Part shown: one piece after another, positions 6,278 through 24,873 of the stretch | Layout of the letters: each line of letters opens with the position of its first letter | How positions within the stretch are numbered: the stretch's first letter is position 1 | Source of the DNA: Sulfurimonas sp. | Lineage (GTDB): Bacteria; Campylobacterota; Campylobacteria; Campylobacterales; Sulfurimonadaceae | Length of the DNA stretch: 64,000 nucleotides | NCBI RefSeq assembly: GCF_026196735.1 | Contig: NZ_JAPHUF010000002.1 | Location: 186,001 to 250,000 of the forward strand | Reading direction: 5' to 3' | Notes under the pieces: model-generated | The model's database searches: none | The model's input: the letters and a program-made list of their open reading frames with translations, nothing else | What the model was told of the DNA's origin: nothing | Translations under genes and position numbers: made by a program

Positions 6278-6367
6278 AAACTCCTTGTATGTTTTAAAAT
6301 ATTATATATCTTTTAAACTTAAAATAGCTATTGTTTATAACATTAAATAACTTTTATGGTTGGTTTA

Positions 6368-6652: not shown

Positions 6653-6658
6653 AAAAAT

Positions 6659-7960
6659 TTACTCGCCTTTTTTGAGAATCATTGTAGTTGATTTGTTGAA
6701 GTCAAAGTACTTATTTGCAACTTCTTTAACTGATTTTTGAGTTACTTTTTCAATGTCTTCTTCGTATGTTAAAAGAGGTTGTAAGTCTCCGCGAACAAGA
6801 TAACTTCCAAAAAGGTTTGCAACAGAAGTCGAGCTTTCTAGTGAGTAGATAAAATCAGCTTTAGAGTTGATTTTGACTTTGTCTAGTTCAGCTTTGGTTA
6901 CTTGCTTGTTTTTTATAAGTTCTATCTGCTCAATCAGCTCTTTTTCAACATCTTCAGCTTTTACCCCTGGATTACATGTAGCTAAAAATATAAAAAGACC
7001 TGGGTCAATATTTTCCATATTATATGCATATACACTGTTTACAAGATGCTTTTTATCTACTAACTCTTTATATAGTCTTGAGCTTTTTCCAGAGAACAAA
7101 ATCTCTGAGATGACACTCAGCTCAACCTGATCTTTACTTTTAAAATTAGGAATATGAAAAGTTATGGCTACCATCTCTACTTCAGAGTCCTTATATATAG
7201 TCGCTCTTTTTGGTCCATCTTGTTCAGGCTCTACAAATTTAAACTCTGGAATTTTAGTTCCATTTTTAATGCTATCAAACTCTTTTTTAGCTTTTTTAAA
7301 CACTTCCTTGGGGTCAACATCACCGGTAACCATTAAGATGGCATTGTTTGGCTGATAGTAAGTCTTATGAAAGTCTTTAATATCTTGGAGTGTCCATGTT
7401 TGGATATCGTTCATAAAACCGATAGGTGTCCAGTGGTAAGGATGGTATGTATAGGCATTGTTAAACAGTGCAAAGTAAAGATAACCAAGAGGATTGTTCT
7501 CTGTTCTCCAGCGTCTCTCTTCTGCAACAACATCTCGCTCAGGTTGGAACTCTTTGTCTTTTAGCTTAAGGTTTTGCATAAGCTCAGCGTAAAGGGATAG
7601 TGACTTAGAGAGATTATCTGTGCTTGATTTTATGTAGTAGTGAGTGTAGTCAAAACTAGTCGATGCATTGTTTATACCGCCTATGCCTTTTACCTCTTTG
7701 TCAAACTGACCGGCTGGCAAATTCTTTGTAGATTTGAAGTTCATATGCTCCAACATATGAGCTATTCCGGTTTTACCCATAACTTCATTTCTGCTTCCGA
7801 CTTTGTAAAATATATCTGTGCTTATAACATTAGTTGAGTTCTCTAGAGGGATTACAACTATCTGCAGTCCATTCTTTAGAGTCTTTGTTTCGTACTTTGG
7901 TAGTGATGTTGCCATTGCTAAATTTCCTAAAATTAGTATGAGTGCTATGAAAATCTTCAT
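6659..7960 (-). CDS. Exported M16 family zinc peptidase
   Basis: A zinc metallopeptidase of the pitrilysin/PqqL group. The inverted zinc motif HxxEH is present (HMLEHMNF) with the distal Glu in 'VAEERRWRTENNP'. A signal peptide is seen if the ATG at 7958-7960 is used (MKIFIALILILGNLAMA), giving 433 residues; the frame also offers an upstream GTG at 7978 overlapping pyrD, but that adds six residues in front of the signal peptide. Homologues next to pyrD and dapA are conserved in Helicobacter and relatives. It follows pyrD directly. Confidence 0.9.
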   Translation of the reverse strand: MKIFIALILILGNLAMATSLPKYETKTLKNGLQIVVIPLENSTNVISTDIFYKVGSRNEVMGKTGIAHMLEHMNFKSTKNLPAGQFDKEVKGIGGINNASTSFDYTHYYIKSSTDNLSKSLSLYAELMQNLKLKDKEFQPERDVVAEERRWRTENNPLGYLYFALFNNAYTYHPYHWTPIGFMNDIQTWTLQDIKDFHKTYYQPNNAILMVTGDVDPKEVFKKAKKEFDSIKNGTKIPEFKFVEPEQDGPKRATIYKDSEVEMVAITFHIPNFKSKDQVELSVISEILFSGKSSRLYKELVDKKHLVNSVYAYNMENIDPGLFIFLATCNPGVKAEDVEKELIEQIELIKNKQVTKAELDKVKINSKADFIYSLESSTSVANLFGSYLVRGDLQPLLTYEEDIEKVTQKSVKEVANKYFDFNKSTTMILKKGE

Positions 7961-7961
7961 A

Positions 7962-9020
7962 TTATTTTCTATCCGCACCTATAGCTTCAGTGATATTTGA
8001 GTATCCGTCAGCTTTTATGAGCTCTGTAAGCTTTTTATTGATGTTCATAATCATGTCAGGACCGTGAAAAACAAGACCGCTTAATATCTGAACAAGTGAA
8101 GCACCTGCTTTTATGCGTCTGTATGCTTCTTCTGCTGAATCTATTCCGCCAACAGAAATAAGTGTAGTTTTTCCGTAAAGCTCTTTGGCTATAGCTTCAA
8201 ATATTTCAAAACTTTTTTGTTTGAGTACTGCACCGCTGAGTCCGCCTTTGTCGTAAGGACTTTTTACAAGCGAGTAGTCAACAGTCGTGTTTGTCGCGAT
8301 GATACCGTCAGCTCCTTTTTCAACCGCCATAGTCGTAAGTGCTACTGCATCTTCTATCGACATGTCAGGAGCTATTTTTAGTAAAATCGGCTTATCTGTT
8401 ATGGCTTTTGCCTCTGCAAAAAGTCTAGTGATGAACTCTTCGTTTTGGAGGTCGCGAAGCCCCGGAGTATTTGGTGAAGAGATATTTATGACAAGGTAGT
8501 CACCAAGAGCGTGAAGAGCTTTTATGAGAGTTGTGTAGTCGTTTATAGCCTCACTATCAGGCGTTACCTTGTTTTTACCGATATTTACACCGATAGGAGT
8601 CGTAAAAGGATAGCGCTGCTTCAATCTCTTTTGTACTTTCAGCAGACCTTCGTTGTTAAAACCCATAGCATTTTGGATAGTTTCTTCTTCTACATGTCGC
8701 CACATTCTAGGCTTTGGATTGCCTTCTTGCGCTTTAGGCGTAACTGTACCTATCTCTGTGAAACCAAATCCCAAAACCTGCATACCGCGAATCATAGTAG
8801 CGTTTTTATCAAACCCGGCACCGAGTCCGACAGGGTTTAGAAATGTACGACCAAACAGCTCTTGAGTCAAAATATCGTTTGTGACGAAGTGAGACTCTAA
8901 AAAAGAGTTAAAAGGAATCTGACAGATGTTAGGAAGTCTAAGTACACATTCCGCTACATGGTGAGCGTTTTCGGGCTGTAGTTTAAATAACAGAGGCTTT
9001 ATGCTTTGATAGTTTATCAT
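7962..9020 (-). CDS. pyrD: Dihydroorotate dehydrogenase, quinone-dependent (class 2)
   Basis: A 352-residue enzyme that oxidises dihydroorotate to orotate in pyrimidine synthesis, passing electrons to membrane quinone. The N-terminal helical extension (residues 1-45) that marks class 2 enzymes is present. FMN-site motifs are 'NPVGLGAGFDKN', 'NISSPNTPGL' with the catalytic Ser, and 'GGIDSAEEAYRRIKAGASLVQI' near the C-terminus. It is the first gene of the leftward pyrD-M16-J-domain group. Confidence 0.96.
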   Translation of the reverse strand: MINYQSIKPLLFKLQPENAHHVAECVLRLPNICQIPFNSFLESHFVTNDILTQELFGRTFLNPVGLGAGFDKNATMIRGMQVLGFGFTEIGTVTPKAQEGNPKPRMWRHVEEETIQNAMGFNNEGLLKVQKRLKQRYPFTTPIGVNIGKNKVTPDSEAINDYTTLIKALHALGDYLVINISSPNTPGLRDLQNEEFITRLFAEAKAITDKPILLKIAPDMSIEDAVALTTMAVEKGADGIIATNTTVDYSLVKSPYDKGGLSGAVLKQKSFEIFEAIAKELYGKTTLISVGGIDSAEEAYRRIKAGASLVQILSGLVFHGPDMIMNINKKLTELIKADGYSNITEAIGADRK

Positions 9021-11168: not shown

Positions 11169-11252
11169 TGTCAACCGCGGTGTTAAAATAGGCAATAATA
11201 AAGCAAATAAGTGACCGCTAAGTAACTTATTTGCTCCTATGATTTGTTAGCA
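11169..11252 (-). repeat. attC site, last (distal) in the array
   Basis: On the minus strand it runs from TGCTAAC through an L-box with AGGAG, paired inner arms (AAATAAGT / ACTTATTT) to a GCGGTTGACA end. It is longer and less like the others on its distal side, as often seen at array ends. It follows the RelE-type toxin gene, whose last codons and stop lie inside it. Confidence 0.7.
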
Positions 11253-11583
11253 TATGTCCTCTTAGTAGTTTTTGTAATAACAACTCTTCTACATTTTGTC
11301 TTGAATCAAAAATAGCCATAATATAAACAGTGTCATTTTCAATTTTGTACATTATTCTGTAAGGTTGTGCAATCAGTTCTCTATAAATAGTTATACCTTC
11401 TTTTAGAAGTTCAGGAACCACTCTGCCTCTTAAAGAAAAAAAGTTGCTAGATTGTGCTTTTTCTTTTATTTGTTCATAAATTTTTCTTGCAGCACTTAAA
11501 TTATCTTTTTTGATATAATCAACAATATTTAAAAGGTCTTCTTTTGCATTTGAAGTCCATTTAATTTTATAAATTTTACTCAT
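11227..11583 (-). CDS. RelE/ParE-family toxin (integron cassette)
   Basis: A 118-residue toxin of the RelE/ParE superfamily: 'KIKWTSNAKEDLLNIVDYI' at the start, then 'RGRVVPEL...YRELIAQPYRIMYKIENDTVYIMAIFDSRQ', with the basic and aromatic residues typical of this fold. Members cleave mRNA on the ribosome or inhibit gyrase. It overlaps the antitoxin stop by four bases. The last seven residues and the TAA stop are encoded by the attC site. Such pairs are common in chromosomal integrons and are thought to stabilise arrays. Confidence 0.88.
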   Translation of the reverse strand: MSKIYKIKWTSNAKEDLLNIVDYIKKDNLSAARKIYEQIKEKAQSSNFFSLRGRVVPELLKEGITIYRELIAQPYRIMYKIENDTVYIMAIFDSRQNVEELLLQKLLRGHMLTNHRSK

Positions 11584-11852
11584 TTACTAAGGAGTTCTTC
11601 AACAGAGTTAAAAACATCTTCTTCAGCATGAAGATTTCCACTTCTAATATCTTCTTCTGCAAATGAAAGAAGCTTCATTATAGCGAGAGCATTTTTCATA
11701 TCTTCATAACTTTTTGGATCTTGTATAACAGCTTTAGCTTCACCATTTTGTGTGATTATCATAGGTCTATGAGTTTCATTGATATATTTTAGAACATCAG
11801 CTGCTCTACTTTTTAGATAGGTAACAGGCTTTATATCATTTACAATTTGCAT
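11580..11852 (-). CDS. Phd/YefM-family antitoxin (integron cassette)
   Basis: A 90-residue antitoxin. The N-terminal Phd/YefM fold is clear ('VTYLKSRAADVLKYINETHRPMIITQNGEAKAVIQDPKSYE'), which binds operator DNA; the acidic C-terminal 35 residues would wrap the toxin. ATG follows a good ribosome-binding site (aaggag). Gene order antitoxin then toxin with a four-base overlap is typical. With the toxin it fills one cassette of about 740 bases, and carries its own upstream sequence for a promoter. Confidence 0.88.
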   Translation of the reverse strand: MQIVNDIKPVTYLKSRAADVLKYINETHRPMIITQNGEAKAVIQDPKSYEDMKNALAIMKLLSFAEEDIRSGNLHAEEDVFNSVEELLSK

Positions 11853-11908
11853 AAAATCTCCTTCAGTCCTTTTATTGTACCAAATTAAGACTTAATATGC
11901 AAATGTGA

Positions 11909-11977
11909 TGTTAACGTTTAAGGAGAGCAATATGAAACCGCTTGGGGTTTCATATTGGCTCCTGCGTTTTGTTAGAC
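11909..11977 (-). repeat. attC site
   Basis: Minus strand GTCTAAC...GTTAACA frame a 69-base site with inner arms CAATATGAAACC / GGTTTCATATTG. It follows the 211-residue gene by one base. The outer sequences (aacgtttaaggagagcaata / tattggctcctgcgttttgtt on the plus strand) match the sites at 18103 and 19818. Confidence 0.9.
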
Positions 11978-11978
11978 A

Positions 11979-12614
11979 TTATTTCATACCGCATTCATGT
12001 TTCATTTTGTCAAAAATAACTATGAAATCATTTATTAAGTTGCGTGGGAATAATGTATAGTTAATTGTTTTTAATTCACTTTTATCTGTAACTAAATCTC
12101 TATTTTTTATATTCATAATCTCATCGAACTTAGTTATATTATCTCTGAGTTTTTTTGGTATGTCTACTTCTAATGTAATTTCTAATTCTTTTTGATTTTT
12201 ACAATGAAATGTTAAATCGAGATCTTTTTTCATTTTATTTCGTATTGTTCTTATCATTATTAGTCCACGAATAATACTAGGTTGAGATAAATAGTTTATA
12301 CAAGAATTGTTTAGTTCTGAATAATTTCCATTAGCTAGTCCTGTCATAAATTTTGTAAAATCATTTGAAATAGTGCCTTTAAACTCGTAAGCCAACTTAC
12401 TAATAACAAAGTCAATTAGTTCTCTTGATATAAAAAAACTTTCTTTTATTATTGAAGTAAGCTTATGGTCGTTTTGTAAATTATCATATGAACCAACTAA
12501 ACTATTTAATAAGTCTTCTGGTAAGTCTATTTCTAATTTAAATGATTCTATTTTTTGATAACATTCTTTTAGCATTTCCAGTCTGATTTCATATTTTGTA
12601 AGTTGTTGTCTCAT
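11979..12614 (-). CDS. Unknown helical protein (integron cassette)
   Basis: A 211-residue soluble, mostly helical protein rich in Lys, Asn and Ile. I recognise no family. Features: an N-terminal charged helix, a central 'IIRGLIMIRTIRNKMKKDLDLTFH' segment, and a strand-like 'ELEITLEVDIPKKLRD' stretch. It is alone in its cassette, bounded by attC sites at 12634 and 11909, and ends one base before its attC. Low G+C fits the rest of the array. Confidence 0.75.
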   Translation of the reverse strand: MRQQLTKYEIRLEMLKECYQKIESFKLEIDLPEDLLNSLVGSYDNLQNDHKLTSIIKESFFISRELIDFVISKLAYEFKGTISNDFTKFMTGLANGNYSELNNSCINYLSQPSIIRGLIMIRTIRNKMKKDLDLTFHCKNQKELEITLEVDIPKKLRDNITKFDEIMNIKNRDLVTDKSELKTINYTLFPRNLINDFIVIFDKMKHECGMK

Positions 12615-12633
12615 TCAGTTCTTTCCTAATGGT

Positions 12634-12699
12634 GTCTAACGGTCGACTTGAACTGTAAATTTTCAGAGAAAATTTATTAGTTCCAAGGTTTTGTTATAA
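12634..12699 (-). repeat. attC site
   Basis: A 66-base site with outer ends GTCTAAC (plus strand) and GTTATAA, and inner arms TAAATTTTC / GAAAATTTA. It follows the restriction endonuclease-like gene by four bases and closes the restriction-modification cassette. Confidence 0.85.
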
Positions 12700-12703
12700 C
12701 TTT

Positions 12704-13456
12704 TTAGTCTGAAGCAGTTAATTCTTTGATTACATCCCAATTTTCTTTATAATGGGGAATATCAGTTAATTTTACTTTTTGGCAATCTTCTAAACTTAAT
12801 GAATCTGCCCAAGGCATTGGAACGATATAGCATATTCCAACTTGTTTATCTACAGCAACATAAATATCACAATCTTCGGATGTAATCCGCTGTCCTATGT
12901 TTGTTGCATGAGTGTGGTCTATACCTTGTCCACCTCTGTCTCTGTCTTTAAAGCTAATATTGCTTCCTGTACTAATTCCTTTAATTTGTACTCTCAAGAG
13001 TTTATTATTGTAATCAATGATTGCATCATAGCGACTACTACGGACATCAACACTACTGCAATTAAATCCTGCAAGTATTGCACGAGCAACAAAAATAAAC
13101 TCAGCACTATCTCCAGCATTTGCTGTCATAACACCACTCTCTATATCATTTATATTTACAGGAAATCCATTGGTCATAGCAATATATAATGATTTTTCAA
13201 TAATATGTTTTAGTTCAGTTTTGATAAACTTAAATTTTTGTTGTTTTTCATCAGATACCTTTGATGCAATTTCTTCTATATTTAAATTTGCTAATTCTTG
13301 TAAATCTAAATCTTCTGCAATTTCTGAAAAGAACTTCATACTGTAGAATTTTTTCAATTGAGCTTCAGTCAATCCATGTGAAAGAGCAATTTCTTTTACT
13401 TTGCTTTTCACATAATTTTTATCTATTAATTCTTGTACTAATTCATTTTCATCCAT
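12704..13456 (-). CDS. PD-(D/E)xK restriction endonuclease-like protein (integron cassette)
   Basis: With the ATG at 13454-13456 the protein has 250 residues; the start overlaps the methyltransferase stop by 8 bases. A TTG 39 bases upstream is possible but inferior. The nuclease core reads Glu in 'SAEFIFVARAILAGFN' (about 119), Asp in 'SSRYDAIID' (144) and 'VQIKG' (Gln157-x-Lys159). This Glu-Asp-QxK layout is the PDDEXK_5-like fold also found in I-Ssp6803I-type nucleases. The N-terminal 75 residues are helical and may bind DNA. Tight coupling to a cytosine methyltransferase indicates the restriction partner of a type II system. Target sequence unknown. Confidence 0.75.
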   Translation of the reverse strand: MDENELVQELIDKNYVKSKVKEIALSHGLTEAQLKKFYSMKFFSEIAEDLDLQELANLNIEEIASKVSDEKQQKFKFIKTELKHIIEKSLYIAMTNGFPVNINDIESGVMTANAGDSAEFIFVARAILAGFNCSSVDVRSSRYDAIIDYNNKLLRVQIKGISTGSNISFKDRDRGGQGIDHTHATNIGQRITSEDCDIYVAVDKQVGICYIVPMPWADSLSLEDCQKVKLTDIPHYKENWDVIKELTASD

Positions 13457-14489
13457 ATTTAAGAGCTTCCTTGATTTTTTTTGCAATTGCTTCAATTACA
13501 GGGACTGTAACAGAATTACCAATTTGTTTGTATATATGTGAATTTGCAAGTTTATCACTTAAAATAAAATTATCGTCATAACCTTGAAATCTAGCACATT
13601 CTCTTGGTGTTAATTTTCTAATATCTTTATCGTCAATTATTAATGGAACATTATGACCACCGGTACCCATGTTTGCTGTTAAGGTTGGACAAAGTTTACT
13701 TTTATTTTCTCTAACATAAACTCTTCTCCATTGATAAATAGTATCTCTATTTTTCATTTCTTCTTTTAATTGCTTATAGTATCTACTATTTGTATAATAA
13801 AATTTTTCTTCTACTTCATTGTCTATTAAATCTTCTATTTTTTTAGTTAATTTTTTTGGCTTAGGAAATTCAAAATTATTAAATACTTTTTCATCCTTAA
13901 AGCCAACAATATATATTCTTTCTCTATTTTGCGGCGTATTTCCATATTCAGAACTATTTAATACTTTATTTTTGACATGAAAGCCTCTGTCTTCCAGTTC
14001 TTTCAATATTCTTTTAAAGGTGTTTCCTTTATCGTGTCCTTGTAAGTTTTTTACATTCTCTAAAAATATAATTTTTGGTTCCAAGTCATCAATAAATCTT
14101 AATATCTCAAAAAATAAATTTCCTCTGTCATCTTCAAATCCTTTTCTGTGACCAGCTACAGAAAATGCTTGACATGGAAATCCACCTGTCAATATATCAA
14201 TTTTTTCAACTTCACTTGTTTTTAAATCTTTTAAATCTTTTTCAAATAATTTGTGCTTGTGATTTGCTTTATAAGTTATAGCAGCATTTTTATCTATTTC
14301 ATTAGCCCATGAAATATCAAAACCGACTTTTTTAAAACCTAATTCAATTCCACCAATGCCTGCAAATAGACCACCTAAAGTTAGTTTTTTAACTTCTTGT
14401 TTTCTAATATTTGAACTAATTATTTTTGTCATACTTCTATTTTCAGCATCAAAATTGAATAACATTTGTGAATCAATCATCTTTGTCAT
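13449..14489 (-). CDS. DNA (cytosine-5) methyltransferase (integron cassette)
   Basis: A 346-residue C5 methyltransferase with all main motifs: I FAGIGGIELGF (42-52, SAM binding), IV GGFPCQAFSVAG with catalytic Cys106, VI ENVKNL (144-149), VIII QNRERIYIVGF, IX RECARFQGY and X QIGNSVTVPV. The target-recognition region between VIII and IX contains TLTANMGTGG. It modifies the site cut by the partner nuclease downstream, protecting the host. A good ribosome-binding site (aaagga) precedes the ATG. The pair forms one cassette of about 2 kb between attC sites 14659 and 12634. Confidence 0.95.
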   Translation of the reverse strand: MTKMIDSQMLFNFDAENRSMTKIISSNIRKQEVKKLTLGGLFAGIGGIELGFKKVGFDISWANEIDKNAAITYKANHKHKLFEKDLKDLKTSEVEKIDILTGGFPCQAFSVAGHRKGFEDDRGNLFFEILRFIDDLEPKIIFLENVKNLQGHDKGNTFKRILKELEDRGFHVKNKVLNSSEYGNTPQNRERIYIVGFKDEKVFNNFEFPKPKKLTKKIEDLIDNEVEEKFYYTNSRYYKQLKEEMKNRDTIYQWRRVYVRENKSKLCPTLTANMGTGGHNVPLIIDDKDIRKLTPRECARFQGYDDNFILSDKLANSHIYKQIGNSVTVPVIEAIAKKIKEALKYG

Positions 14490-14658
14490 GTAATATCCTT
14501 TTTGTGCCTACTATATCCTTAATTTTGATATTTTGTAATAAATATGACAATTTGCAATATTTATTTTATTTGTATATTTTATCTTTTTTTTCTTGAATAG
14601 TCTGTTAAGAAAATCAACTGTATATAAAAAGCTAATATGCTTTAAATAATTTTTGTGG

Positions 14659-14728
14659 TTATAACGTTTATCGTGAGCGATAATTTTCCCGCAGGGTAAA
14701 TTATTGCGTCTCCTCGTACTTGTTATGT
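14659..14728 (-). repeat. attC site
   Basis: A 70-base site, nearly identical to the one at 22955 (shared aacgtttatcgtgagc start, TAATTTTCCCGC / GGGTAAATTA arms and tctcctcgt end). The stop of the HEPN-like gene lies inside its right end. Confidence 0.92.
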
Positions 14729-15283
14729 TCTTTTTACAGCGTAACTGCCATTGCCAAGGCTAAACAGCCTACTTTTTGAAATATCAGATTGACTCTGTTC
14801 ATGGAACTGCTCAATTATTTCTTTAGTGTTTTTTAGTATCACTTCTGCATTTTTAATAGTACAAAATTTATCTATATGTGATGATAGATTTAACATAGCA
14901 CCTTTTGTATTATTTTGTGGATTCTTGACCTTTTTTATAACTTGTTCACTATGTCCATGAACAATAAGGTCTCTAAATTGAAATAATGGAGTGATGATTG
15001 AGAATATATCATTATTAAAGTCGATATCTAAATGAATAATTTCAGCAAGCTTTTTTACTTTAGTTTTAAAGCAAGGGTGCTCATCTGAATCCCATTTATT
15101 CCACTCTTCATTTTGCTCAATAAATCCTTGATGATTTATATATGCTTCTAGACTAAAAGCACAAAATGAGATACATGAAACTAAATTATAAAATTGCCCC
15201 TCGTTATTTAATTTTGCACTATCAAAAAGAAACTCTGCCGTTTTATAATGATTTACAAATGTATTATGATTAAAGTAATCCAT
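14723..15283 (-). CDS. HEPN-like protein (integron cassette)
   Basis: A 186-residue, mainly helical protein. It carries 'FRDLIVHGHSE' near residue 90-100: Arg-x4-His followed by further polar residues, the motif that marks HEPN-family RNases. Preceding helices ('FYNLVSCISFCAFSLEAYINHQ') fit the HEPN four-helix bundle seen in proteins annotated as hypothetical near defence genes. HEPN proteins often act as toxins or as defence nucleases, but no MNT-type antitoxin is adjacent. It starts 3 bases after the upstream stop. Family call rests on one motif, so it is tentative. Confidence 0.55.
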   Translation of the reverse strand: MDYFNHNTFVNHYKTAEFLFDSAKLNNEGQFYNLVSCISFCAFSLEAYINHQGFIEQNEEWNKWDSDEHPCFKTKVKKLAEIIHLDIDFNNDIFSIITPLFQFRDLIVHGHSEQVIKKVKNPQNNTKGAMLNLSSHIDKFCTIKNAEVILKNTKEIIEQFHEQSQSDISKSRLFSLGNGSYAVKRT

Positions 15284-15286
15284 CTA

Positions 15287-15631
15287 TTAGTTGTCTTTCA
15301 TTAAAATTTTATAGATAGCTTTATCAAAATTCTCTGTTGTTGAACCATTTATTTTGTCATATTCTTCAGTCTGTTGACATATATTAATCATAACTTCTAA
15401 TTTTGTCAAACCTTTTAAGTTGTGATTTCTATTTTCAGGCTTTATATTTTTAGCTAATTCTTCCATCCTATCATACATTGCTATTCCAAAAGATGGAAAG
15501 TCGCTTTCTTTATCGTTAATAAGTAATATGCATTCTTCTTTGATATTATTTTCACCTACATTTCTGATTAAGCTGGTTGCACCAACTAATAAGGCTAATA
15601 AAATTACAATTACTACAGCTATTTTCTTCAT
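15287..15631 (-). CDS. Small membrane-anchored or exported protein, unknown (integron cassette)
   Basis: A 114-residue protein with an N-terminal hydrophobic helix (MKKIAVVIVILLALLVGATS) acting as anchor or signal peptide. The rest is a soluble domain with two Cys (CILLIND, NICQQ) that may form a disulfide. No family recognised. Its ATG lies 3 bases past a half attC, whose AGGAG element is well placed as ribosome-binding site. Confidence 0.65.
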   Translation of the reverse strand: MKKIAVVIVILLALLVGATSLIRNVGENNIKEECILLINDKESDFPSFGIAMYDRMEELAKNIKPENRNHNLKGLTKLEVMINICQQTEEYDKINGSTTENFDKAIYKILMKDN

Positions 15632-15634
15632 TAG

Positions 15635-15655
15635 TGCTCCTATGATTTGTTATGT
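15635..15655 (-). repeat. Half attC remnant
   Basis: TGCTCCTATGATTTGTTA (15635-15652) is identical to the right half of the attC at 11169-11252 (11232-11249). The matching left half is missing, and the next gene starts at once. This looks like a cassette junction where half of attC has been lost, fusing two cassettes. Confidence 0.7.
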
Positions 15656-16393
15656 GTAATTGTGCTTTATATTTAAATTTATATTAATATTATTCTTTTT
15701 TAGCCATTTTTCTAATTCCGTGTTAAATTCTTCATAAATACTAATAATATCTGAAACTCGCAAGTAGTCATTTTTATAGGGAAGTTTTAACATTTTCGTA
15801 TTTAACTCTTCCTTGTCAAGTCCCTGTAAAAGAACTAGTTGGTTTTCTGGAGCACAATTAGTTTGCTTAAAACACCAATGGCTACCAAAATCATTAAGCA
15901 TAAAATATTTTTTTGTGTCCAATTGAATAATAATCTCAAATAATCGTTTTGGAAAAAATGGATTATAAATTATATCGTTGTTAACCTCATTAAACCATTG
16001 CCAATGTAATTCTTTAGTTTTAAACTGATGAGTAATATATTTCGTACTTTCTAAATTTAGTAATGAATTATAATTAATTATAGAGAATGGTATAAAACTG
16101 CTTAATAATATTTTATCTTCTTTTTTAGATAGTAGAGTAGATGAATTGTAATTTTTTTGCATATAATTTAAATATTCTATAATTAATTTTAATTGTTCTT
16201 TTAATACTTCATTTTCTAGTCTGCTTTTTTGCCATTGAGAATAAGAAATATATGCCAAAATTAAAGTCACAACGATTGCATTAGTTCCAACAAGAGGCAT
16301 TAAAAGTTTTTCAGGAATTAAACAATAAAAATAATATTCAAAGAATATTATTGATATTGACAGAAAAATTAAAAAAATTAATGTTTTTTTCAT
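15650..16393 (-). CDS. Two-helix membrane protein with cytoplasmic domain, unknown (integron cassette)
   Basis: A 247-residue protein with two N-terminal membrane helices (about residues 4-28 and 36-52), then a coiled-coil-like stretch (SRLENEVLKEQLKLIIEYL) and a soluble domain to the end. This architecture (2TM plus variable cytosolic domain) occurs in several abortive-infection-like and signalling proteins, but I see no known catalytic motif. The stop lies in the half attC. Confidence 0.65.
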   Translation of the reverse strand: MKKTLIFLIFLSISIIFFEYYFYCLIPEKLLMPLVGTNAIVVTLILAYISYSQWQKSRLENEVLKEQLKLIIEYLNYMQKNYNSSTLLSKKEDKILLSSFIPFSIINYNSLLNLESTKYITHQFKTKELHWQWFNEVNNDIIYNPFFPKRLFEIIIQLDTKKYFMLNDFGSHWCFKQTNCAPENQLVLLQGLDKEELNTKMLKLPYKNDYLRVSDIISIYEEFNTELEKWLKKNNININLNIKHNYT

Positions 16394-16412
16394 ACAACCT
16401 CTTATTTTTTAT

Positions 16413-16482
16413 ACATAACGTTTATCGTGAGCAATACTAAACCGCTTTAGGTTTAGTATTACGCTCCTCGTATTTGTTATAT
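16413..16482 (-). repeat. attC site
   Basis: A 70-base site: aacgtttatcgtgagc start, arms CAATACTAAACC / GGTTTAGTATT and end gctcctcgtatttgtta. The TAA stop of the 391-residue gene falls within the GTTATAT end. Confidence 0.92.
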
Positions 16483-17652
16483 CTTATTCTCTATTTCAAG
16501 CGTGTGATAACTACACATGATTTTCCAACCGCGGTCTTGATTACTACGATATCTTTCATATAATCTAAATTGTATTTTGTCTTTATCTATTTTAATGTGA
16601 CTGATATAGTACCCTCTACCCGCCACTATAATTACATTTTTTGGAAGTTTTATATGGACTTCTTTTATAAAGTCTCCATTTTTTGAGAACTTCCATAAAA
16701 TAATTTTAGATGAGTCATCGATTGATGTTCTAAATATATATTTATTTTCATTTGTTGAAAAAGTAGTTCCTATAAAATGTTGGCTAAATTCAATGGTCTC
16801 TGCTTTAACCGTATGTGATGTATTGTTGACATCAAACACGAAACTATCGCTATTAGTTTTTATACTATGATCACCATATTGAGTTGTCCACTTTTCATAT
16901 TCATCCTTTTCACGCTTGTCAGATTTATCAGATGGACACACTGATTCTTCACTACTAAACAATAGTTTGCTGTTAACATCATATGTATCTTTTTCCCATC
17001 CCCAAGATTTATTATAAATTGAATCCTTGGGATAAATTATATTAAGCTCATCTGAGAATTTCAAACAAGCTTTTAATCTTTTTATTGTTCTTTGATAGTT
17101 GTCATTTTTTAAAATAATATCATCACCATCTAAATTTCCAATATAACGTGAAGAAGCATTTTTACTTATATGGTTACTTGTAAAATAAAGTTTATTTGAT
17201 TGTAGATTTTTTGTAAATATTTTTTCTGTTCCACATTTCAATATTGTTTTTGCTTCTTGTTCCTTGTAGGTATTAAATACAAATACTAAACCCCAAACAA
17301 CTAAAATTGTCAATAGAATTCCTGCAATTATCTTTGTTCGTTTTTTTATTTTAGGACTTCCATATTTTATTTTGAAATAAAAATAGATACTCCATGCAGA
17401 AATGTACCAAATCAATGGAATAGCAGGTGCCCATCCACCTAAAACTATAGAACCATGCATTTGCAATGCATCTCCTTGGAGCATAACAATTACATAAACC
17501 ATTTCCTTTAAAACATATGGTATTAATAGTACAGCTAAAGCCCATTTTACTTTTGTTTTGCCAGATACTAATTTTGAAAAAATAATTAAAATAACTGGTA
17601 ATAAAGCAATAATATATTTAAGGAAAACTCCTACTAAAAGTCCTGTTCTCAT
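16477..17652 (-). CDS. Membrane protein with extracytoplasmic domain, unknown (integron cassette)
   Basis: A 391-residue protein with four hydrophobic segments in the first 130 residues (about 8-25, 35-55, 67-90, 106-127) and a large soluble C-terminal domain of about 260 residues. The C-terminal part alternates short strands with Asn/Ser/Lys-rich turns, as in beta-rich domains. No family recognised. It is alone in a 1.25-kb cassette between attC sites 17666 and 16413. Confidence 0.75.
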   Translation of the reverse strand: MRTGLLVGVFLKYIIALLPVILIIFSKLVSGKTKVKWALAVLLIPYVLKEMVYVIVMLQGDALQMHGSIVLGGWAPAIPLIWYISAWSIYFYFKIKYGSPKIKKRTKIIAGILLTILVVWGLVFVFNTYKEQEAKTILKCGTEKIFTKNLQSNKLYFTSNHISKNASSRYIGNLDGDDIILKNDNYQRTIKRLKACLKFSDELNIIYPKDSIYNKSWGWEKDTYDVNSKLLFSSEESVCPSDKSDKREKDEYEKWTTQYGDHSIKTNSDSFVFDVNNTSHTVKAETIEFSQHFIGTTFSTNENKYIFRTSIDDSSKIILWKFSKNGDFIKEVHIKLPKNVIIVAGRGYYISHIKIDKDKIQFRLYERYRSNQDRGWKIMCSYHTLEIENKI

Positions 17653-17665
17653 TTAAATCCTTTTG

Positions 17666-17801
17666 ATATAACGGTCGAGTACAAAAATATGTTACCAGCT
17701 TTTGTGCTTGATTAAATTTTACAATGGGAACTAAATATCTTTAGTTCTTGAAATTTTTTTCGGCTGTGGTAACATATTTTTGTTGCTACGATTTGTTAAT
17801 G
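17666..17801 (-). repeat. Long attC site (about 136 bp)
   Basis: Outer ends ATATAAC and GTTAATG. Long perfect arms CAAAAATATGTTACC (about 17682-17696) and GGTAACATATTTTTG lie inside, with a further small hairpin (GAACTAAA...TTTAGTTC) in the loop. Twice the length of most sites here, comparable to Vibrio repeats. It follows the zinc-ribbon gene. Confidence 0.85.
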
Positions 17802-17811
17802 GTCTTTATGT

Positions 17812-18093
17812 TTACTCTCTTTGCATCTTTTCCCATCTATTATTACAATAAGAACATTTACCATTATAAATATCTATTTCCATATCTTCATAACTGATTG
17901 GTTCCTCACAGTTTGGACACTCATACATAAGAAAGTCTGATATTCCTTCTTCTAGTGTATACTCCTGTTTTTCACTCAAAGTATCTATTCCTTTGTCAAT
18001 AGCAAGTTTTGCTATACCTTTTGCCGCACTATCATCTATTTTATCAAGAATACTTTCTAAGTATTCTATTAATCCATCTTGTCTTTTTATCAT
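17812..18093 (-). CDS. Small zinc-ribbon protein (integron cassette)
   Basis: With the ATG at 18091-18093 the protein has 93 residues; it is preceded by GGAG at ideal spacing. An in-frame ATG four codons earlier (18103-18105) begins directly at the cassette junction and has no ribosome-binding site inside the cassette. The C-terminus carries two CxxC knuckles (YECPNCEE and GKCSYCNN) that should bind one zinc. The N-terminal 50 residues are helical. Function unknown; could be a DNA- or RNA-binding adaptor. Confidence 0.75.
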   Translation of the reverse strand: MIKRQDGLIEYLESILDKIDDSAAKGIAKLAIDKGIDTLSEKQEYTLEEGISDFLMYECPNCEEPISYEDMEIDIYNGKCSYCNNRWEKMQRE

Positions 18094-18102
18094 ATTTTGC
18101 TC

Positions 18103-18171
18103 CATTAACGTTTAAGGAGAGCAATAGTTTTCCCGCTAGGGTAAACTATTGGCTCCTGCGTTTTGTTAGTC
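18103..18171 (-). repeat. attC site
   Basis: A 69-base site: ttaacgtttaaggagagc start, arms CAATAGTTTTCCC / GGGTAAACTATTG and end ggctcctgcgttttgttag. Same subfamily as the sites at 11909 and 19818. Confidence 0.92.
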
Positions 18172-18840
18172 TGGATTATAAGTAAGAAAAACACCTACAC
18201 CAGTAGCAACTAAACTTAATATACTTACGATAAACGACCATAGTTCATAATTAGTTCGTTTAATATCCTCTTTTAGTATTATTTTTGTTTTTGGAAATAG
18301 TTTACCATCTTGATATTTTTGAAATGATGAATGTAAAATATATACCATTATCAGTGGAGCTAATGAAAATATATACATTTCCTTAGCTATTAAAAAAATG
18401 AAAATCATTGAAAATATACCAGTAAATATACCGTTTAAACTAGCAAAATGTTTAGAAAAATTTGTATACCATGGTTTTTTCTTTTCTAAAAAGGAGTTTA
18501 CTTGCTCTATTTTCCCTAGAAACCAAGCTTCATCATGTGCATGTATTTGATAGTCTGAAACAGTTTTTCTAAAGCTTAAAAAAATTCCTCTATCTATTGT
18601 ATTATCTTGTGTCCAACCTTTTACACTACATGTTAGACCATCTATCTCATTTGGTAATTCTTGTGAAAACAAATCATCTAAGTTATCTGCTCTTATCTGC
18701 ACATCATCATGGTGTATACTAAATTCAAATGCATGAGTATGTTCAGGAATACCTTCTATTAGTATTTTCATTAACGATTTTACATCATCAAGTTTTAAAA
18801 GTACTACAGGAGTATCTATAATTTTTCTATATTCTTTCAA
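18166..18840 (-). CDS. Membrane protein, unknown (integron cassette)
   Basis: A 224-residue protein. Residues 1-125 form a soluble mixed domain; then come hydrophobic segments at about 136-152, 156-170 and 199-218, with a lysine-rich cytosolic loop between the last two. No family recognised. The stop codon lies in the attC. It occupies one cassette of about 750 bases. Confidence 0.75.
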   Translation of the reverse strand: MKEYRKIIDTPVVLLKLDDVKSLMKILIEGIPEHTHAFEFSIHHDDVQIRADNLDDLFSQELPNEIDGLTCSVKGWTQDNTIDRGIFLSFRKTVSDYQIHAHDEAWFLGKIEQVNSFLEKKKPWYTNFSKHFASLNGIFTGIFSMIFIFLIAKEMYIFSLAPLIMVYILHSSFQKYQDGKLFPKTKIILKEDIKRTNYELWSFIVSILSLVATGVGVFLTYNPD

Positions 18841-18854
18841 TTTGTTCCTTTGTA

Positions 18855-18923
18855 GACTAACGTTTGAGTTGAGAAATATTTGAGCCGCAGGGCCAAATAT
18901 TTCTCTCCAAGGTTTTGTTATCT
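18855..18923 (-). repeat. attC site
   Basis: A 69-base site: gactaacgtttgagttgag start, arms AAATATTTG / CAAATATTT, end ctctccaaggttttgttatct. It follows the 231-residue gene by one base. Confidence 0.9.
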
Positions 18924-19619
18924 TTACTCCTCAGCAACATCTATAATTTCTCCATCTTCAGTTATCTGAGGTAAAAGGTTCTCTTGATTAGCACTTGAAA
19001 TAGTATTCAGTAAAGGAAGGTTGTTTCCTTTAATATTAATATTGACTGTCAAGCTAAAAAGTCCTTTTAATTCCTTGAGTAGTACTTTAGCTTTAGGTTC
19101 TAGATTGGAATAAATATTTAATTCAAATAAAGATCCTAAAATACCTTTCATTGATGTGATGTCTTGGTTAAGTTCTTGCGTTAATTTTTCTAAAATCTTA
19201 TTTATTTTAATAGTTTGTTTCTCGTCAAATATATTTGAAGTATTAATTTTATCTTTTATACTATTTAGTAATGAATTTATTTCAGTTAATTCATCTTCAG
19301 TTACATCATAAATAATTGTATTAAAATGGTTATCAAAAGAGTCATTATGTGAAACAAATATAATTTCTTTGTAAATTTGTTGTAGATATCCTCTGAGGTT
19401 AGGAAGTTGATCACTTGATTTTAAGCTTTTTAAATATTTACTGCATATTTCAAGGTCATATTTTTGACAAAATATTTTTATAATTCCTATCATCTTTATC
19501 ATATCAATTTCATTAATTTTTCCTGACATTACAGATTCCATATTTGTTTCAAGGTAGGTTTCTAAATGCTTGACAGGCTCTTCCATATTTGTTAAGTCTT
19601 TAAATTCTTTTATTGTCAT
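18924..19619 (-). CDS. Unknown helical protein (integron cassette)
   Basis: A 231-residue soluble protein, almost all helix by composition (many Leu, Ile, Lys, Glu and Asn), with an acidic C-terminus (ITEDGEIIDVAEE). No signal peptide, membrane segment or catalytic motif seen. Alone in its cassette. I do not recognise it. Confidence 0.72.
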   Translation of the reverse strand: MTIKEFKDLTNMEEPVKHLETYLETNMESVMSGKINEIDMIKMIGIIKIFCQKYDLEICSKYLKSLKSSDQLPNLRGYLQQIYKEIIFVSHNDSFDNHFNTIIYDVTEDELTEINSLLNSIKDKINTSNIFDEKQTIKINKILEKLTQELNQDITSMKGILGSLFELNIYSNLEPKAKVLLKELKGLFSLTVNINIKGNNLPLLNTISSANQENLLPQITEDGEIIDVAEE

Positions 19620-19640
19620 ATTTAATATTTCCTTTTAGTA

Positions 19641-19749
19641 AGATAACGGTCAAGCCGAGCGATACTCTGAGAAACAGTATAGCAAACTTTAGTTTGCGGT
19701 ACTGATACGATAGAGTTGGAAGAGTGTTCGCTCCAGCGACTTGTTATCC
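19641..19749 (-). repeat. attC site with complex secondary structure
   Basis: Outer ends AGATAAC (plus strand) and GTTATCC; about 109 bases. Inside, CAGTA-TA-GCAAACT pairs with AGTTTGC-GG-TACTG. The first 15 bases after the junction (19645-19659) are also exactly complementary to 19782-19796, beyond the apparent end of the site, so an alternative much larger fold is possible. Confidence 0.75.
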
Positions 19750-19817
19750 GAAGCCGTAAGGCGGAGGAAAACAAGAACTTACTCGGCTTGACCGTTCATC
19801 CCTCGCCGTTGGCGAGA
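19750..19817 (-). other. ORF-less cassette spacer between two attC sites
   Basis: Between the attC at 19641 and the one at 19818 lie only about 70 bases, with no reading frame of note. The stretch is relatively GC-rich and contains a hairpin: GTTCATC-C-CTCGCC-GTT-GGCGAG-A-GATGAAC (19794-19824). It would be an ORF-less cassette of about 177 bases counting its attC. Such cassettes may carry promoters or small RNAs, or be remnants. Confidence 0.6.
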
Positions 19818-19886
19818 GATGAACGTTTGAGGAGAGCAATAGTTTTCCGCTCGCGGTAAACTATTGGCTCCTGTGTTTTGTTATGT
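19818..19886 (-). repeat. attC site
   Basis: A 69-base site: gaacgtttgaggagagc start, arms CAATAGTTTTCCGC / GCGGTAAACTATTG and end ggctcctgtgttttgttatg. It follows the S24-domain gene. Confidence 0.9.
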
Positions 19887-19933
19887 TTACTTTTAAAATT
19901 AAAAACCCACATAGAGTAGCGTCTATAACATCA

Positions 19934-20308
19934 TTAAAAAGTACTAAAAGATAAAACTACTTTAGCTACAACACGTACTTCGACTTCATTGTAAACTAAA
20001 TGTGAAAATGCTTTATTGATGGAGACGAATGTCATACCAGTATTTTCTTGCTTAGCTTGTTTTATCCACATGCTATTATTTTGATAGACGAGATAAATTC
20101 CTTGATCCTGTACTACTCTTTGGGAGAGATCAGCCACAACCAAGGCACGGTCTTTAATAACAGGTTGCATAGATTTACCATCTACCTTTATTACAAAAAG
20201 CGACTCTTTATTTACGGATTCAGGTAGTAGATCCATAGAAAATTTTAAAACTTTTTTTTCGTTTTTTCCACCAAGAACATCCACATATTCAAGAATAACA
20301 AGGGACAA
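19934..20308 (-). CDS. Stand-alone S24 (LexA/UmuD-type) peptidase domain protein (integron cassette)
   Basis: A 124-residue protein starting at a TTG preceded by AAGGA at good spacing. It contains the S24 fold: Ser in 'VDGKSMQPVIKDRALVVAD' (about residue 46) and Lys in 'NSMWIKQAK' (about 86), the Ser-Lys dyad of self-cleaving repressors and UmuD. There is no helix-turn-helix domain and no clear Ala-Gly cleavage site. It is too short for a phage repressor, so it may be a UmuD-like or anti-repressor-like factor. No umuC is nearby. Confidence 0.75.
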   Translation of the reverse strand: MSLVILEYVDVLGGKNEKKVLKFSMDLLPESVNKESLFVIKVDGKSMQPVIKDRALVVADLSQRVVQDQGIYLVYQNNSMWIKQAKQENTGMTFVSINKAFSHLVYNEVEVRVVAKVVLSFSTF

Positions 20309-20363
20309 ATTAATCCTTATTTTTTAATTATTAACAGATGTGTAACTATATCATTTGATTTCA

Positions 20364-20431
20364 ATATAACGTTTAAAATGAGCCGATGAATTGCCGGCAG
20401 GTAATTTATTGGCTCCACTGTTTTGTTATGC
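20364..20431 (-). repeat. attC site
   Basis: A 68-base site: ataacgtttaaaatgagcc start, arms GATGAATTGCC / GGTAATTTATT (imperfect), end ggctccactgttttgttatg. It follows the SIR2-STAND gene. Confidence 0.88.
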
Positions 20432-20473
20432 TTTTAAAATTCCATATCGGTAAACTGATAATAAATATATCTG

Positions 20474-22909
20474 TTAAATATTCTCTAAAATTTCGTTTAG
20501 TTTTTGATGACAGTAATCCATTCTATTGCTTTCAGTAAAGTATCCTTTATGTAAACCATCTAGCTTTTTGGCCATATCTTGAACATATGATTTAAAATGG
20601 CTTTTATTTTTATTAGATAGTTTTGTATACTTTTCTTGAAAATAATCATTATACACTTCTACTTGTCTATATTTATATTGGTCATCATATAAGTTGGTTA
20701 ATAGTTTATGTGCTTTTTTAAAATACTCCATACTTTTATTTTGGTCATGCTCTCTTAGTGAAAGTTGAATCCATAATCTTGACTGTTGAGCATCTAAATA
20801 TGATGTGTCATAACCTTCATAAGCCTTTGCATAAGCAGTATCTAAACAATTTTGAGCATTATTAAAATCATCTATTGCTATCCTTGCCATTGCATATTGA
20901 AGCCAAAAATGAGGAGTTTTTTCTAGTCTATCAATACGAGTTTTTAATTGCTCATAGTATCTTATCAACATATTTGTCTTATTTTCATTAGGTAGAGAGC
21001 GTTCAATAAAAGAAAATTTAAGTAATGCCCTATAAATACTTGATTCAATATTTCCATTAGAACGTAAATTTTGGAATTTTTCTGCGACATCTAATAATTT
21101 ATTTATTGTATATAGCCCTTTAAAGTGATTTTTTAATAAGTTTCTAGCATATAATGATGACTTTGTTAGAATCTTACTATTCTTTGATGGAAACAATTGA
21201 ATAAAATCAGGATTTTGAGTTAACTCTGAACTAAAAATTGCATTAGATAAAGAAACTTCGGAAATAAGACTAAATGTTAAAGGTTGATTCATAATTTCCA
21301 ATATACATATAGCTAAAATTGTATCTTGGTATTCCTTATTTTTAAAAAGATTTACTAATAGGTTATCAATCCTTGATTTCATTTGAGGTGCATTAAGAAT
21401 ATTTAGTAATGTATGAGAAATTTGTTTTTTATTTTTTTGTTCAATTATTTCAACTTTTTTCTCAGTTGAAAGACCTGCTTGCTCACCCCATAATGCAGCA
21501 TTTTCCAAAATATCAGAAAAAGATATAACTTCTTCATGAGATAAAATATCAATATTTAGCTCTAATGAATTTTGAATAATTTGAAAATCATCATAGTAAT
21601 GTCCATGATTTGAACTTCTAGTACTTAAAATTATTTTTATATTATCTGAGTTAATCAAGGTAATATACTTAATAATATCTAAAGAATTTTCATAATTATC
21701 AATAATAATATATATTTTTTTATTCAGTGATAACAATTTATCAATATCTTCACTGTAGTTTCCTTCAATATTATTCAGCATAAATACTGATTTACCATTA
21801 ATAGTTAAGAGTGAAGCCAATTCATTTAAAAATACACTTTTCCCATTACCAAAATCACTTAAGATTGTTAAGCAATTTGTATCTTTTAAAAGTTCAATAG
21901 CCTGAGTAAGACCTTGTCTTATTATTAAATAAGGCAAATGTTGTATTCCAGTCATAGCATCATTTACATAATTATTATCTAACTTTCCATGTAATAAAAA
22001 TTCTAAAATATCCTTATCTTCAATCTCTTCTGTATTATTTTCTAATTCAAAAGCATTAAAACAATCTAACCAAAATTCATGCTCAACTTTTTTAGGCATA
22101 TTTTGAATTAGTTCTTTTGCAAAGCCATCTGTTCCAATAGTATATACTTTCCCAAATTCAGAAAGTTCAAATAGAGATTTCTTCGAGCTATCTTCATGAG
22201 TGATAAAAAATGTTTTTTCTTTAAAATGTTTGGATTCAAATAATATTTTTTGAATTTCAATATCATATAAAGAATATCCTACGAATACAATTGCTGAAGC
22301 CTTTTCTAAATCCTTTTTAAATGAATAGAACCAATTAGAATTTAAAAAAGAATCAGCTGATAGATAAGAAGCTGTTGATAATTTAAAACTTTCAGGAATC
22401 TCATCACTATTCAAAGAAGCAATATTACCGTTAATTTGAACACATATATTTTTCTTTTTATAATATACTTTTGGGTCTTCATTGAGAGTAATACATTCTC
22501 CAATTAATCCATTTGCTCTTAGTCCTAGCTCTATTGAATTGTCATAGTTTGTTGTATAAATTCTTCTCCATGGAATAGAACAAATATCTTTATGCGATTG
22601 ATGAATACTTTTTAATGTATATTGTTCTTTTAAAAGTTCAATTAATTCAATATCATTTTTTATTCTTAAAAAATAATTTGCAGAAAATTTTAAATCACCT
22701 TCTCCATCAAATTTACCTTTTTCTGCAATTAGTTTAGCTAGCTCACTGGCTCTTGGAGGTTCTTTGCCTACTATATTTGTTGCATTACTTGAAAATCCTG
22801 CACCAGTAAATAATATTGAATTACTAGAAGATATTTTTTGTAATACTTCTTCTAAATTATCATTTGAATTAGTCAATTCTAAAACATTAATTTTTTTTAT
22901 TTCTTCCAT
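20474..22909 (-). CDS. SIR2-STAND-TPR protein, probable anti-phage defence (integron cassette)
   Basis: An 811-residue protein in one cassette of about 2.6 kb. Residues 30-230 are a SIR2-like domain: TGAGFS (35-40), TTNYD with Asn121, and the SIR2_2-type C-terminal motif FVGYSLYD (209-216). The position of the catalytic His in the usual 'K-hydrophobic-H-G' motif reads Q-I-N-G (Asn160). Residues 340-560 form a STAND/AAA-type P-loop NTPase: Walker A SDFGNGKS (351-358), Walker B YIIID (400-404), sensor-like LSTR (428-431). The C-terminal 200 residues look like TPR helices. In this family the NTPase/TPR part senses a phage product and the SIR2 part depletes NAD. Function is inferred. Confidence 0.8.
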   Translation of the reverse strand: MEEIKKINVLELTNSNDNLEEVLQKISSSNSILFTGAGFSSNATNIVGKEPPRASELAKLIAEKGKFDGEGDLKFSANYFLRIKNDIELIELLKEQYTLKSIHQSHKDICSIPWRRIYTTNYDNSIELGLRANGLIGECITLNEDPKVYYKKKNICVQINGNIASLNSDEIPESFKLSTASYLSADSFLNSNWFYSFKKDLEKASAIVFVGYSLYDIEIQKILFESKHFKEKTFFITHEDSSKKSLFELSEFGKVYTIGTDGFAKELIQNMPKKVEHEFWLDCFNAFELENNTEEIEDKDILEFLLHGKLDNNYVNDAMTGIQHLPYLIIRQGLTQAIELLKDTNCLTILSDFGNGKSVFLNELASLLTINGKSVFMLNNIEGNYSEDIDKLLSLNKKIYIIIDNYENSLDIIKYITLINSDNIKIILSTRSSNHGHYYDDFQIIQNSLELNIDILSHEEVISFSDILENAALWGEQAGLSTEKKVEIIEQKNKKQISHTLLNILNAPQMKSRIDNLLVNLFKNKEYQDTILAICILEIMNQPLTFSLISEVSLSNAIFSSELTQNPDFIQLFPSKNSKILTKSSLYARNLLKNHFKGLYTINKLLDVAEKFQNLRSNGNIESSIYRALLKFSFIERSLPNENKTNMLIRYYEQLKTRIDRLEKTPHFWLQYAMARIAIDDFNNAQNCLDTAYAKAYEGYDTSYLDAQQSRLWIQLSLREHDQNKSMEYFKKAHKLLTNLYDDQYKYRQVEVYNDYFQEKYTKLSNKNKSHFKSYVQDMAKKLDGLHKGYFTESNRMDYCHQKLNEILENI

Positions 22910-22954
22910 GTAACTACCCCTTATAGTTTAAATTTTAGTTTTTTATCTTGTGTA

Positions 22955-23024
22955 GCATAACGTTTATCGTGAGCAATAATTTTCCCGCTAGGGTAAATTA
23001 TTGGTCTCCTCGTTCTTGTTATCT
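22955..23024 (-). repeat. attC site, first in the array
   Basis: A 70-base site nearly identical to that at 14659: gcataacgtttatcgtgagc start, arms CAATAATTTTCCC / GGGTAAATTATTG, end tctcctcgttcttgttatct. The end of the transglutaminase-like gene reads 36 bases into it before its stop. Confidence 0.92.
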
Positions 23025-23602
23025 GTTTTAGCAAGTTCAATATCAGGAAAATTATTTATCATCTCATCATAAGTTTTAAATTTTTCTAATGTTTGAACTA
23101 TTATTTCTAATGGTTTTTCATATATCTTTGGTAAATTAAATTCATTTTCTCCTAATTCAAATGCTAATTTTTCAATAGGTGGATTAAATTGTGCATTTAC
23201 ACCTTCTTTGTTTCCTCTTGAATCTACTTTATACCAACCATAATCTTTTAGATATATTGCATTTAATCCATGCAGACAAAAGATATCCTCTTTGTATTCA
23301 CCACAGCTTAGCCTTTGATAACAAAATCCCGTAGGGATATAATTAGCTCTCAGTAAAGCTGCCAATAAGTGACTTTTTGCATAACACCATCCGGTTTTAT
23401 ATTTTAATACATCACTTGCTTTGCATGTGGTGGTATTATCTTTATAATCTCCAGTATGATTTATATTATCTCGTACATATTCAAAACAATTTTTTGCTAT
23501 TTCTACATCTGCTTTACAATCAGTTGATAAACTCATTGCTAGTTTTTGTATGTCTTGATTTGAATAATCTATAATATTCGTTTCTTCTAAAAACTTTGTC
23601 AT
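22988..23602 (-). CDS. Transglutaminase-like cysteine protein (integron cassette 1)
   Basis: A 204-residue protein with the transglutaminase-like triad: Cys in 'KTGWCYAKSHLLAALLRA' (near 74), His in 'FCLHGLNAIYL' (near 109) and Asp in 'WYKVDSRGN' (near 123). This superfamily includes peptidases, amidases and protein-crosslinking enzymes; no signal peptide is present, so it is cytoplasmic. It is the first cassette, so closest to the presumed array promoter. The last 11 residues (DNKNEETNNLP) are encoded by attC sequence, a product of insertion rather than of the domain. Confidence 0.82.
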   Translation of the reverse strand: MTKFLEETNIIDYSNQDIQKLAMSLSTDCKADVEIAKNCFEYVRDNINHTGDYKDNTTTCKASDVLKYKTGWCYAKSHLLAALLRANYIPTGFCYQRLSCGEYKEDIFCLHGLNAIYLKDYGWYKVDSRGNKEGVNAQFNPPIEKLAFELGENEFNLPKIYEKPLEIIVQTLEKFKTYDEMINNFPDIELAKTDNKNEETNNLP

Positions 23603-23904: not shown

Positions 23905-24873
23905 ATGGAAATTAAAAAAAAATTACTTGATATTGTTCGTGATAAAATTAGGTTTAAGCATTATAGTATTTCCACGGAGAAAACTTATATTTATTGGATA
24001 AAGCATTACATATTATTTCATGACAAAAAGCACCCAAGAGAGATGGGAAAAGTGGAAATAGAACAATATTTAACTTCTTTGGCAGTTGAAAATAAAGTTG
24101 CACCTGCTACACAAAATCAGGCATTTTCTGCAATTTTATTTTTATACAAAGAAGTTTTAGGTGTAGATTTAAGCAATGAAAATATTCAAGCTTTAAGAGC
24201 CCAAGAAAGAAAACACATACCTGTAGTTTTAACAAAAGAAGAAGTTTTAAACGTGATTGAAAATATTACAGGTATATATCAACTTATAGTTACACTTATG
24301 TATGGTTGTGGGCTTAGGATGAGTGAGGTACTAAATTTAAGAGTTAAAGATATTGATATGGGATTTGATAAAGTTTATGTTTGGGATTCTAAATCGCTTA
24401 AAGATAGAACTGTTCCATTGCCTCAAAAGTTAAAGCAAAGATTATCAGTGCAAATTGAAGCTGTTGTAGAATTACATAAAAAAGATATAAATAACGGTTA
24501 TGGAACTGTGTATATGCCTTTTGCCTTAGAAAAAAAATATCCAAAATCAAAAAGTGAAACAAAATGGCAATATTTATTTCCAATGACAAAAGTTTCTAAG
24601 GATCCCAAAAGTCAAGTTGTACGAAGGCATCATGTCCATCCAAAAACATTAGGTAGAAATATAAAGCAAGCTTCTCAAAAAGCAAATTTAAATAAACGAG
24701 TAACTTCGCATATCTTTAGACACTCTTATGCTACTCATTTGTTACAAGCGGGGATAGATTTGAGAAGTATTCAAGAGTTACTGGGGCACAAAAGTGTTGA
24801 AACTACTATGATTTATACACATGTTGTTTCAGAGATGAATAAGGCTAAAGTCATAAGTCCTTTAGATTTTTAA
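23905..24873 (+). CDS. intI: Integron integrase IntI
   Basis: A 322-residue tyrosine recombinase that inserts and excises cassettes at attI and attC. The catalytic set is complete: Arg138 (GLRMSE), His269 and Arg272 ([13 protein letters not shown]), His295 (LLGHK) and Tyr304 (TTMIYTHV). The IntI-specific extra segment is present at about 203-226 ([20 protein letters not shown]), followed by [14 protein letters not shown]; this distinguishes IntI from XerC/XerD and phage integrases. A consensus ribosome-binding site (aggag) lies 6 bases before the ATG. Divergent orientation to the cassettes is canonical. It appears intact. Confidence 0.96.

Follow-up and report, generated by a model that had tools for sequence, protein, structure and literature searches.

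An EfAvs5-type SIR2–STAND gene, probably encoding an anti-phage sensor, in a chromosomal integron cassette of Sulfurimonas sp.

The gene and its cassette array

The window (the whole 64,000-nt stretch of Sulfurimonas sp. DNA that was analyzed) contains a gene encoding an 811-aa protein in an intact frame with zero internal stops, located in an array of integron cassettes (Table 1). The N-terminal part of the protein is matched by Pfam SIR2_2 (PF13289, E 5e-11), and its SIR2 motifs read G36-A-G-F-S40, T119-T-N121-Y-D123, Q158-I-N160-G161, and G211-Y-S213. Another region is predicted to be a STAND-type NTPase, based on weak Pfam matches below the gathering score (nSTAND_NTPase5, 1.8e-6, and nSTAND3, 1.2e-3), the intact P-loop GNGKS at residues 354–358, and the fold of an AlphaFold2 model (pLDDT 86, pTM 0.81, input alignment of 46 sequences); the Walker B residue D404 and the conserved arginine R431 of this module are also present in the alignment. 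The C-terminal part, residues 460–811 approximately, is modeled as stacked helices and can be aligned with EfAvs5 to its end. Of the SIR2–STAND–TPR defence-like architecture proposed in the initial annotation, the SIR2 and STAND modules, the repeats, and the homology to a defence protein (EfAvs5, see below) stand, while the name TPR is justified by fold only, a Pfam search of the protein having found no TPR.

The integrase gene intI is divergent from the array, which extends leftward from it. The attC sites were identified with a covariance model built on seven sites of the array, excluding the site of the Avs5-type gene itself; the canonical core pattern RYYYAAC/GTTRRRY, tried on the array, yielded nothing useful because the cores here are divergent. 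Genome-wide, the model matched nothing beyond this array except a single site on a different contig. With an attC at the 3′ end of the gene and the array adjoining intI, the gene has the anatomy of an integron cassette, and the earlier suggestion that a single cassette carries it is borne out by its own attC, its place in the array, and the nearby integrase. The second position in the array may entail weak expression.

Table 1. Features of the EfAvs5-type gene and of the integron carrying it (coordinates in the window).
Feature	Position	Strand	Details and basis
EfAvs5-type SIR2-STAND-helical-repeat protein	20474..22909	(-)	ATG start, 811 aa
N121 codon (catalytic Asn of TTNYD, invariant in the family)	22547..22549	(-)	codon arithmetic and alignment
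Q158 codon, CAA	22436..22438	(-)	sequence and alignment
N160 codon, AAC (NG replacing HG)	22430..22432	(-)	sequence and alignment
Integron cassette, from recombination point to recombination point	20370..22960	(-)	2,591 bp, array position 2; attC cores in the sequence and covariance model
attC of the Avs5-type cassette	20366..20432	(-)	covariance model R1, 44.8 bits, E 2e-8, site held out of the model
attC of the first (preceding) cassette, with the R′ core that delimits the Avs5-type cassette on the 5′ side	22957..23025	(-)	covariance model
Integron integrase intI	23905..24873	(+)	322 aa; TIGR02249, E 1.6e-124
First cassette: transglutaminase-like protein	22988..23602	(-)	PF01841, 5.6e-13
Cassette array, attC sites (eight strong and two weak)	11195..23025	(-)	covariance model

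The product of the third cassette (19934–20308, minus strand) consists of a UmuD/LexA-like S24 peptidase domain (124 aa, TTG start), with no DNA-binding domain. At 12704–14489 (minus strand) of the same array, the gene of a C5 cytosine methyltransferase (13449–14489) overlaps the gene of a PD-(D/E)XK endonuclease (12704–13495), and these two probably constitute a type II restriction-modification pair. The distal end of the array (11227–11852, minus strand) contains genes of a ParE-type toxin and a Phd/YefM antitoxin. One more cassette ORF (11979–12614, minus strand) has a weak sub-threshold match to prokaryotic STING (40 residues, E 0.002), probably a chance one. Over 64 bp, the attC at about 22958–23021 matches part of an Aliarcobacter faecis plasmid with 95% identity. 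The single site away from the array, an attC of the array's type, is at 532533–532600 of contig C7 (genome G000, E 1.1e-11).

The EfAvs5 clade and its integron-borne members

Avs5 is a known type of antiviral sensor in bacteria that, on detecting a phage, destroys the NAD of the cell. Among solved structures, phmmer finds one full-length match, the EfAvs5 filament 9JAP (“Helical structure of EfAvs5(SIR2-STAND)”; E 1.9e-137, residues 8–783, 35% identity). The same structure is the top hit of a structure search with the AlphaFold2 model (Z 33.4, 710 aligned residues, 35% identity), and the rmsd of 22 Å in this comparison presumably reflects a differing domain arrangement. The next Foldseek match to the model is the AVAST5 filament 9NC9 (E 1e-17); a profile search revealed no sequence link to 9NC9, and the tie to it is by fold only. 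We collected and aligned about 105 relatives encoded on plasmids, in genomes, and on viral contigs, and the family profile scores the 811-aa protein at E 2.4e-252. One of the relatives, encoded on an E. coli plasmid (L004, 5947–8496), is near-identical to EfAvs5 over all 849 residues, which anchors the collected family to a characterized protein. The 811-aa protein shows the features of the EfAvs5 clade, that is, full-length similarity, GAGxS and TTNxD, HG or NG, a STAND NTPase, and C-terminal helical repeats.

The curated Avs5 models NF041814 and PDLC02170 do not match the 811-aa protein. The E. coli plasmid copy of EfAvs5 fails both models as well, and hence it is the coverage of the models that falls short. 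PADLOC and NCBIfam naming of the gene yielded only ThsA-type SIR2 matches or none, a search with NF041814 for classical Avs5 in approximately 250 genomes of one genus provided no true member to align, and a search of phage records gave no match. Thus, the standard Avs5 annotation models miss the whole EfAvs5 clade and, as even a near-identical copy of EfAvs5 escapes them, annotation pipelines probably under-call it.

Full-length relatives are present in only one other genome among 135 of the window's genus, and only a handful of the 397 genomes of the phylum sample have relatives. Given this rarity, the gene was probably acquired laterally.

Similar genes are observed in integrons of other bacteria. 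In Marinobacter lipolyticus SM19 (L022, 1787–10242), intI (1787–2770) is accompanied by an EfAvs5-type gene (5974–8457) with clear attC-like sites directly on both sides, and in Vibrio sp. RE88 (L024, 5668–8640) a chromosomal integron has such a gene between two VCR-like attC sites. In Solimonas flava (L054, 4785–8433), an integron-type integrase adjoins an Avs5-like gene, with an apparently fragmented downstream attC and a transposase-like ORF nearby; the cassette status of this gene is less certain, as the far attC is not clear. Since the attC scan of relatives was noisy, we counted only sites confirmed by eye, either adjacent to an integrase or in VCR-like pairs (L022 and L024). The closest relative of the 811-aa protein, from a Sulfurovum MAG (L020, 57% identity), has no attC by the model and no adjoining integrase. 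The proteins from Marinobacter and Vibrio group closely together and apart from the protein of the window, the simplest count giving three changes on the tree, and this grouping makes at least two integron captures likely.

The proteins encoded in cassettes are not shortened: over the shared span, the protein of the window has 782 residues vs. the median of 797 in relatives outside cassettes. Hence the carriage of a defence gene on one cassette, highlighted in the initial annotation, is indeed notable for its size (2.6 kb, unstreamlined), but is not unique, given the genes of Marinobacter lipolyticus and Vibrio sp., and integron-borne defence cassettes are already established. We observe that full-length, unstreamlined Avs5 sensors of the NLR-like type travel as integron cassettes in several genera, with a size exceeding the usual cassette expectation.

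The NG motif and the His two positions before it

The position of the canonical catalytic His is occupied by Asn160 (codon AAC), as initially reported, and the rest of that reading of the site holds as well: Asn121 is invariant in the family, and G211-Y212-S213 is present. The conclusions drawn from Asn160 do not hold. It had been taken as a hint of an inactive or altered SIR2, or else of a new subclass; we observe Asn at this position in 90 of 102 aligned proteins, including EfAvs5 itself, which reads HING, and His in the remaining 12. In a tree computed after removal of the two motif columns, the HG proteins sit in a single group of 20 rows, with four changes. This agrees with a 2026 study of Avs5: roughly half of the homologues carry the NG variant, and in PaAvs5-1, where it is natural, N153A and N153Q abolish protection, while N153H keeps a part of it (PMC12931631). 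Upon infection, NAD+ drops threefold in the PaAvs5-1 system, with hydrolysis of NAD+ to ADP-ribose (PMC12931631). As NG is family-wide and both functional and required in PaAvs5-1, N160 marks neither inactivity nor a new subclass. In some SIR2 contexts Asn may still fail to support catalysis, since a structure containing NAD fragments was determined with the H146N mutant of KomC, a SIR2 NADase (according to the title of 9XVC).

The departure lies two residues earlier. At the −2 position relative to N160, all 100 other aligned relatives have His, the 811-aa protein has Gln, and its closest relative has Asn (codon AAT). Eight columns never vary outside these two proteins, namely N121, Y122, D123, H158, G161, G308, G356, and K357; seven of them are kept here, the exception being Gln at position 158. 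This is also the only difference among the 36 columns conserved in at least 90% of the family, and thus the protein shows no sign of decay. Compared to the other domains, SIR2 does not evolve at a higher rate: its identity with the closest relative is 57%, and that of the NTPase is 45%. His is kept in a relative from the same genus as the window (L115, 33% identity) and in one from the same order (L010). A sequencing error at Q158 is unlikely, as the closest relative, in another genome, also departs at this position.

Judging by the spacing of two, the −2 His presumably shares a strand face with the catalytic position, and, as the invariant His is replaced by Gln, the activity of SIR2 may be impaired or altered. 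The His two residues before NG or HG is family-wide in our alignment and has no standing as a published criterion; its loss lowers the certainty about activity and leaves that about homology untouched. The initial annotation had allowed for the catalytic His being found elsewhere by alignment. The alignment shows the reverse: it is the relatives that hold a second nearby His, and the 811-aa protein is without it. Both this replacement and the recurrence of such genes as cassettes in other bacteria had been overlooked. Hence a misleading clue, Asn in place of His taken as the mark of a dead or new SIR2, gives way to a sharper one: two sister proteins have lost a residue that elsewhere varies no more than the catalytic Asn or the P-loop Lys.

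Predicted function and comparison with known systems

We consider it probable that the gene is an anti-phage sensor of the EfAvs5 type held as a chromosomal integron cassette, and, by analogy with its relatives, the 811-aa protein is most likely an active NADase acting in abortive infection. Its C-terminal helical repeats would bind a phage protein, upon which the nucleotide-binding STAND module would switch and the subunits assemble into filaments. The SIR2 domain would then hydrolyse NAD+ with the participation of N121 and N160: N121 and D123 of TTNYD may position the water, while N160 of the NG motif would act in place of the canonical His, like its counterpart in PaAvs5-1. Gln158, replacing the otherwise invariant His, would be tolerated or slightly retune the site.

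An opposite, rather unlikely, explanation is that the SIR2 domain of this lineage, having no His at either position of H-x-N-G, is catalytically dead, and the protein retains only nucleotide binding and assembly or is a non-functional passenger. It draws on the loss of an elsewhere invariant His both here (Gln) and in the nearest relative (Asn), but all other residues of the NAD site and the P-loop are intact, the departure is restricted to a single conserved column in an intact ORF, and the domain has not accelerated. The same pair of sister proteins, carrying two different residues at an otherwise invariant site with all else kept, could also point to active enzymes with altered chemistry, that is, with changed NAD affinity, another substrate (e.g., NADP or a signalling nucleotide), or another product (e.g., cyclised ADP-ribose). 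However, one substitution followed by drift in two sisters may be neutral, and we regard such altered chemistry as quite improbable. In a broader scenario, the second, otherwise invariant His of H-x-N-G would have disappeared from an Avs5 sub-lineage of Campylobacterota-like bacteria, one case of which is an integron cassette, and SIR2 would work there without any His in the active-site strand, its chemistry or regulation being altered. This scenario is speculative and seems to us rather doubtful.

With an active sensor as the preferred reading, the 811-aa protein is a new protein of an already described type in an already described carrier, both the NG motif and integron-borne defence having been published. 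EfAvs5 (9JAP; clade 3 of Avs5 in PMC12931631) shares with it the order of SIR2, STAND NTPase, and helical repeats, the motifs GAGFS, TTNYD, NG, GYS, and GNGKS, and 35% identity, and differs in having H-I-N-G instead of Q-I-N-G. Plasmids of E. coli and viral-type contigs carry genes near-identical to that of EfAvs5, whereas the gene studied here is an integron cassette. PaAvs5-1, from clade 1, has the same domain order and a functional NG replacing HG, while its Walker B reads IIFIE in contrast to IIID404 here; its trigger is JADA, and the identity between Avs5 clades is only about 18–21% (PMC12931631).

The SIR2 defence NADases ThsA, DSR2, and KomC share the SIR2 fold (Z of about 20–23 over about 245 residues, ~3 Å), but have the canonical HG and other sensor modules; in KomC, the −2 residue is Lys (IIKFHG). 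Finally, phage-defence cassettes of integrons have been described in several studies (Darracq 2025; Kieffer 2025; Getz et al.; reviewed in PMC12409362). As in the case considered here, these are defence genes in attC-bounded cassettes; the published ones are reported to be streamlined in size (PMC12409362), whereas the EfAvs5-type cassette spans 2.6 kb.
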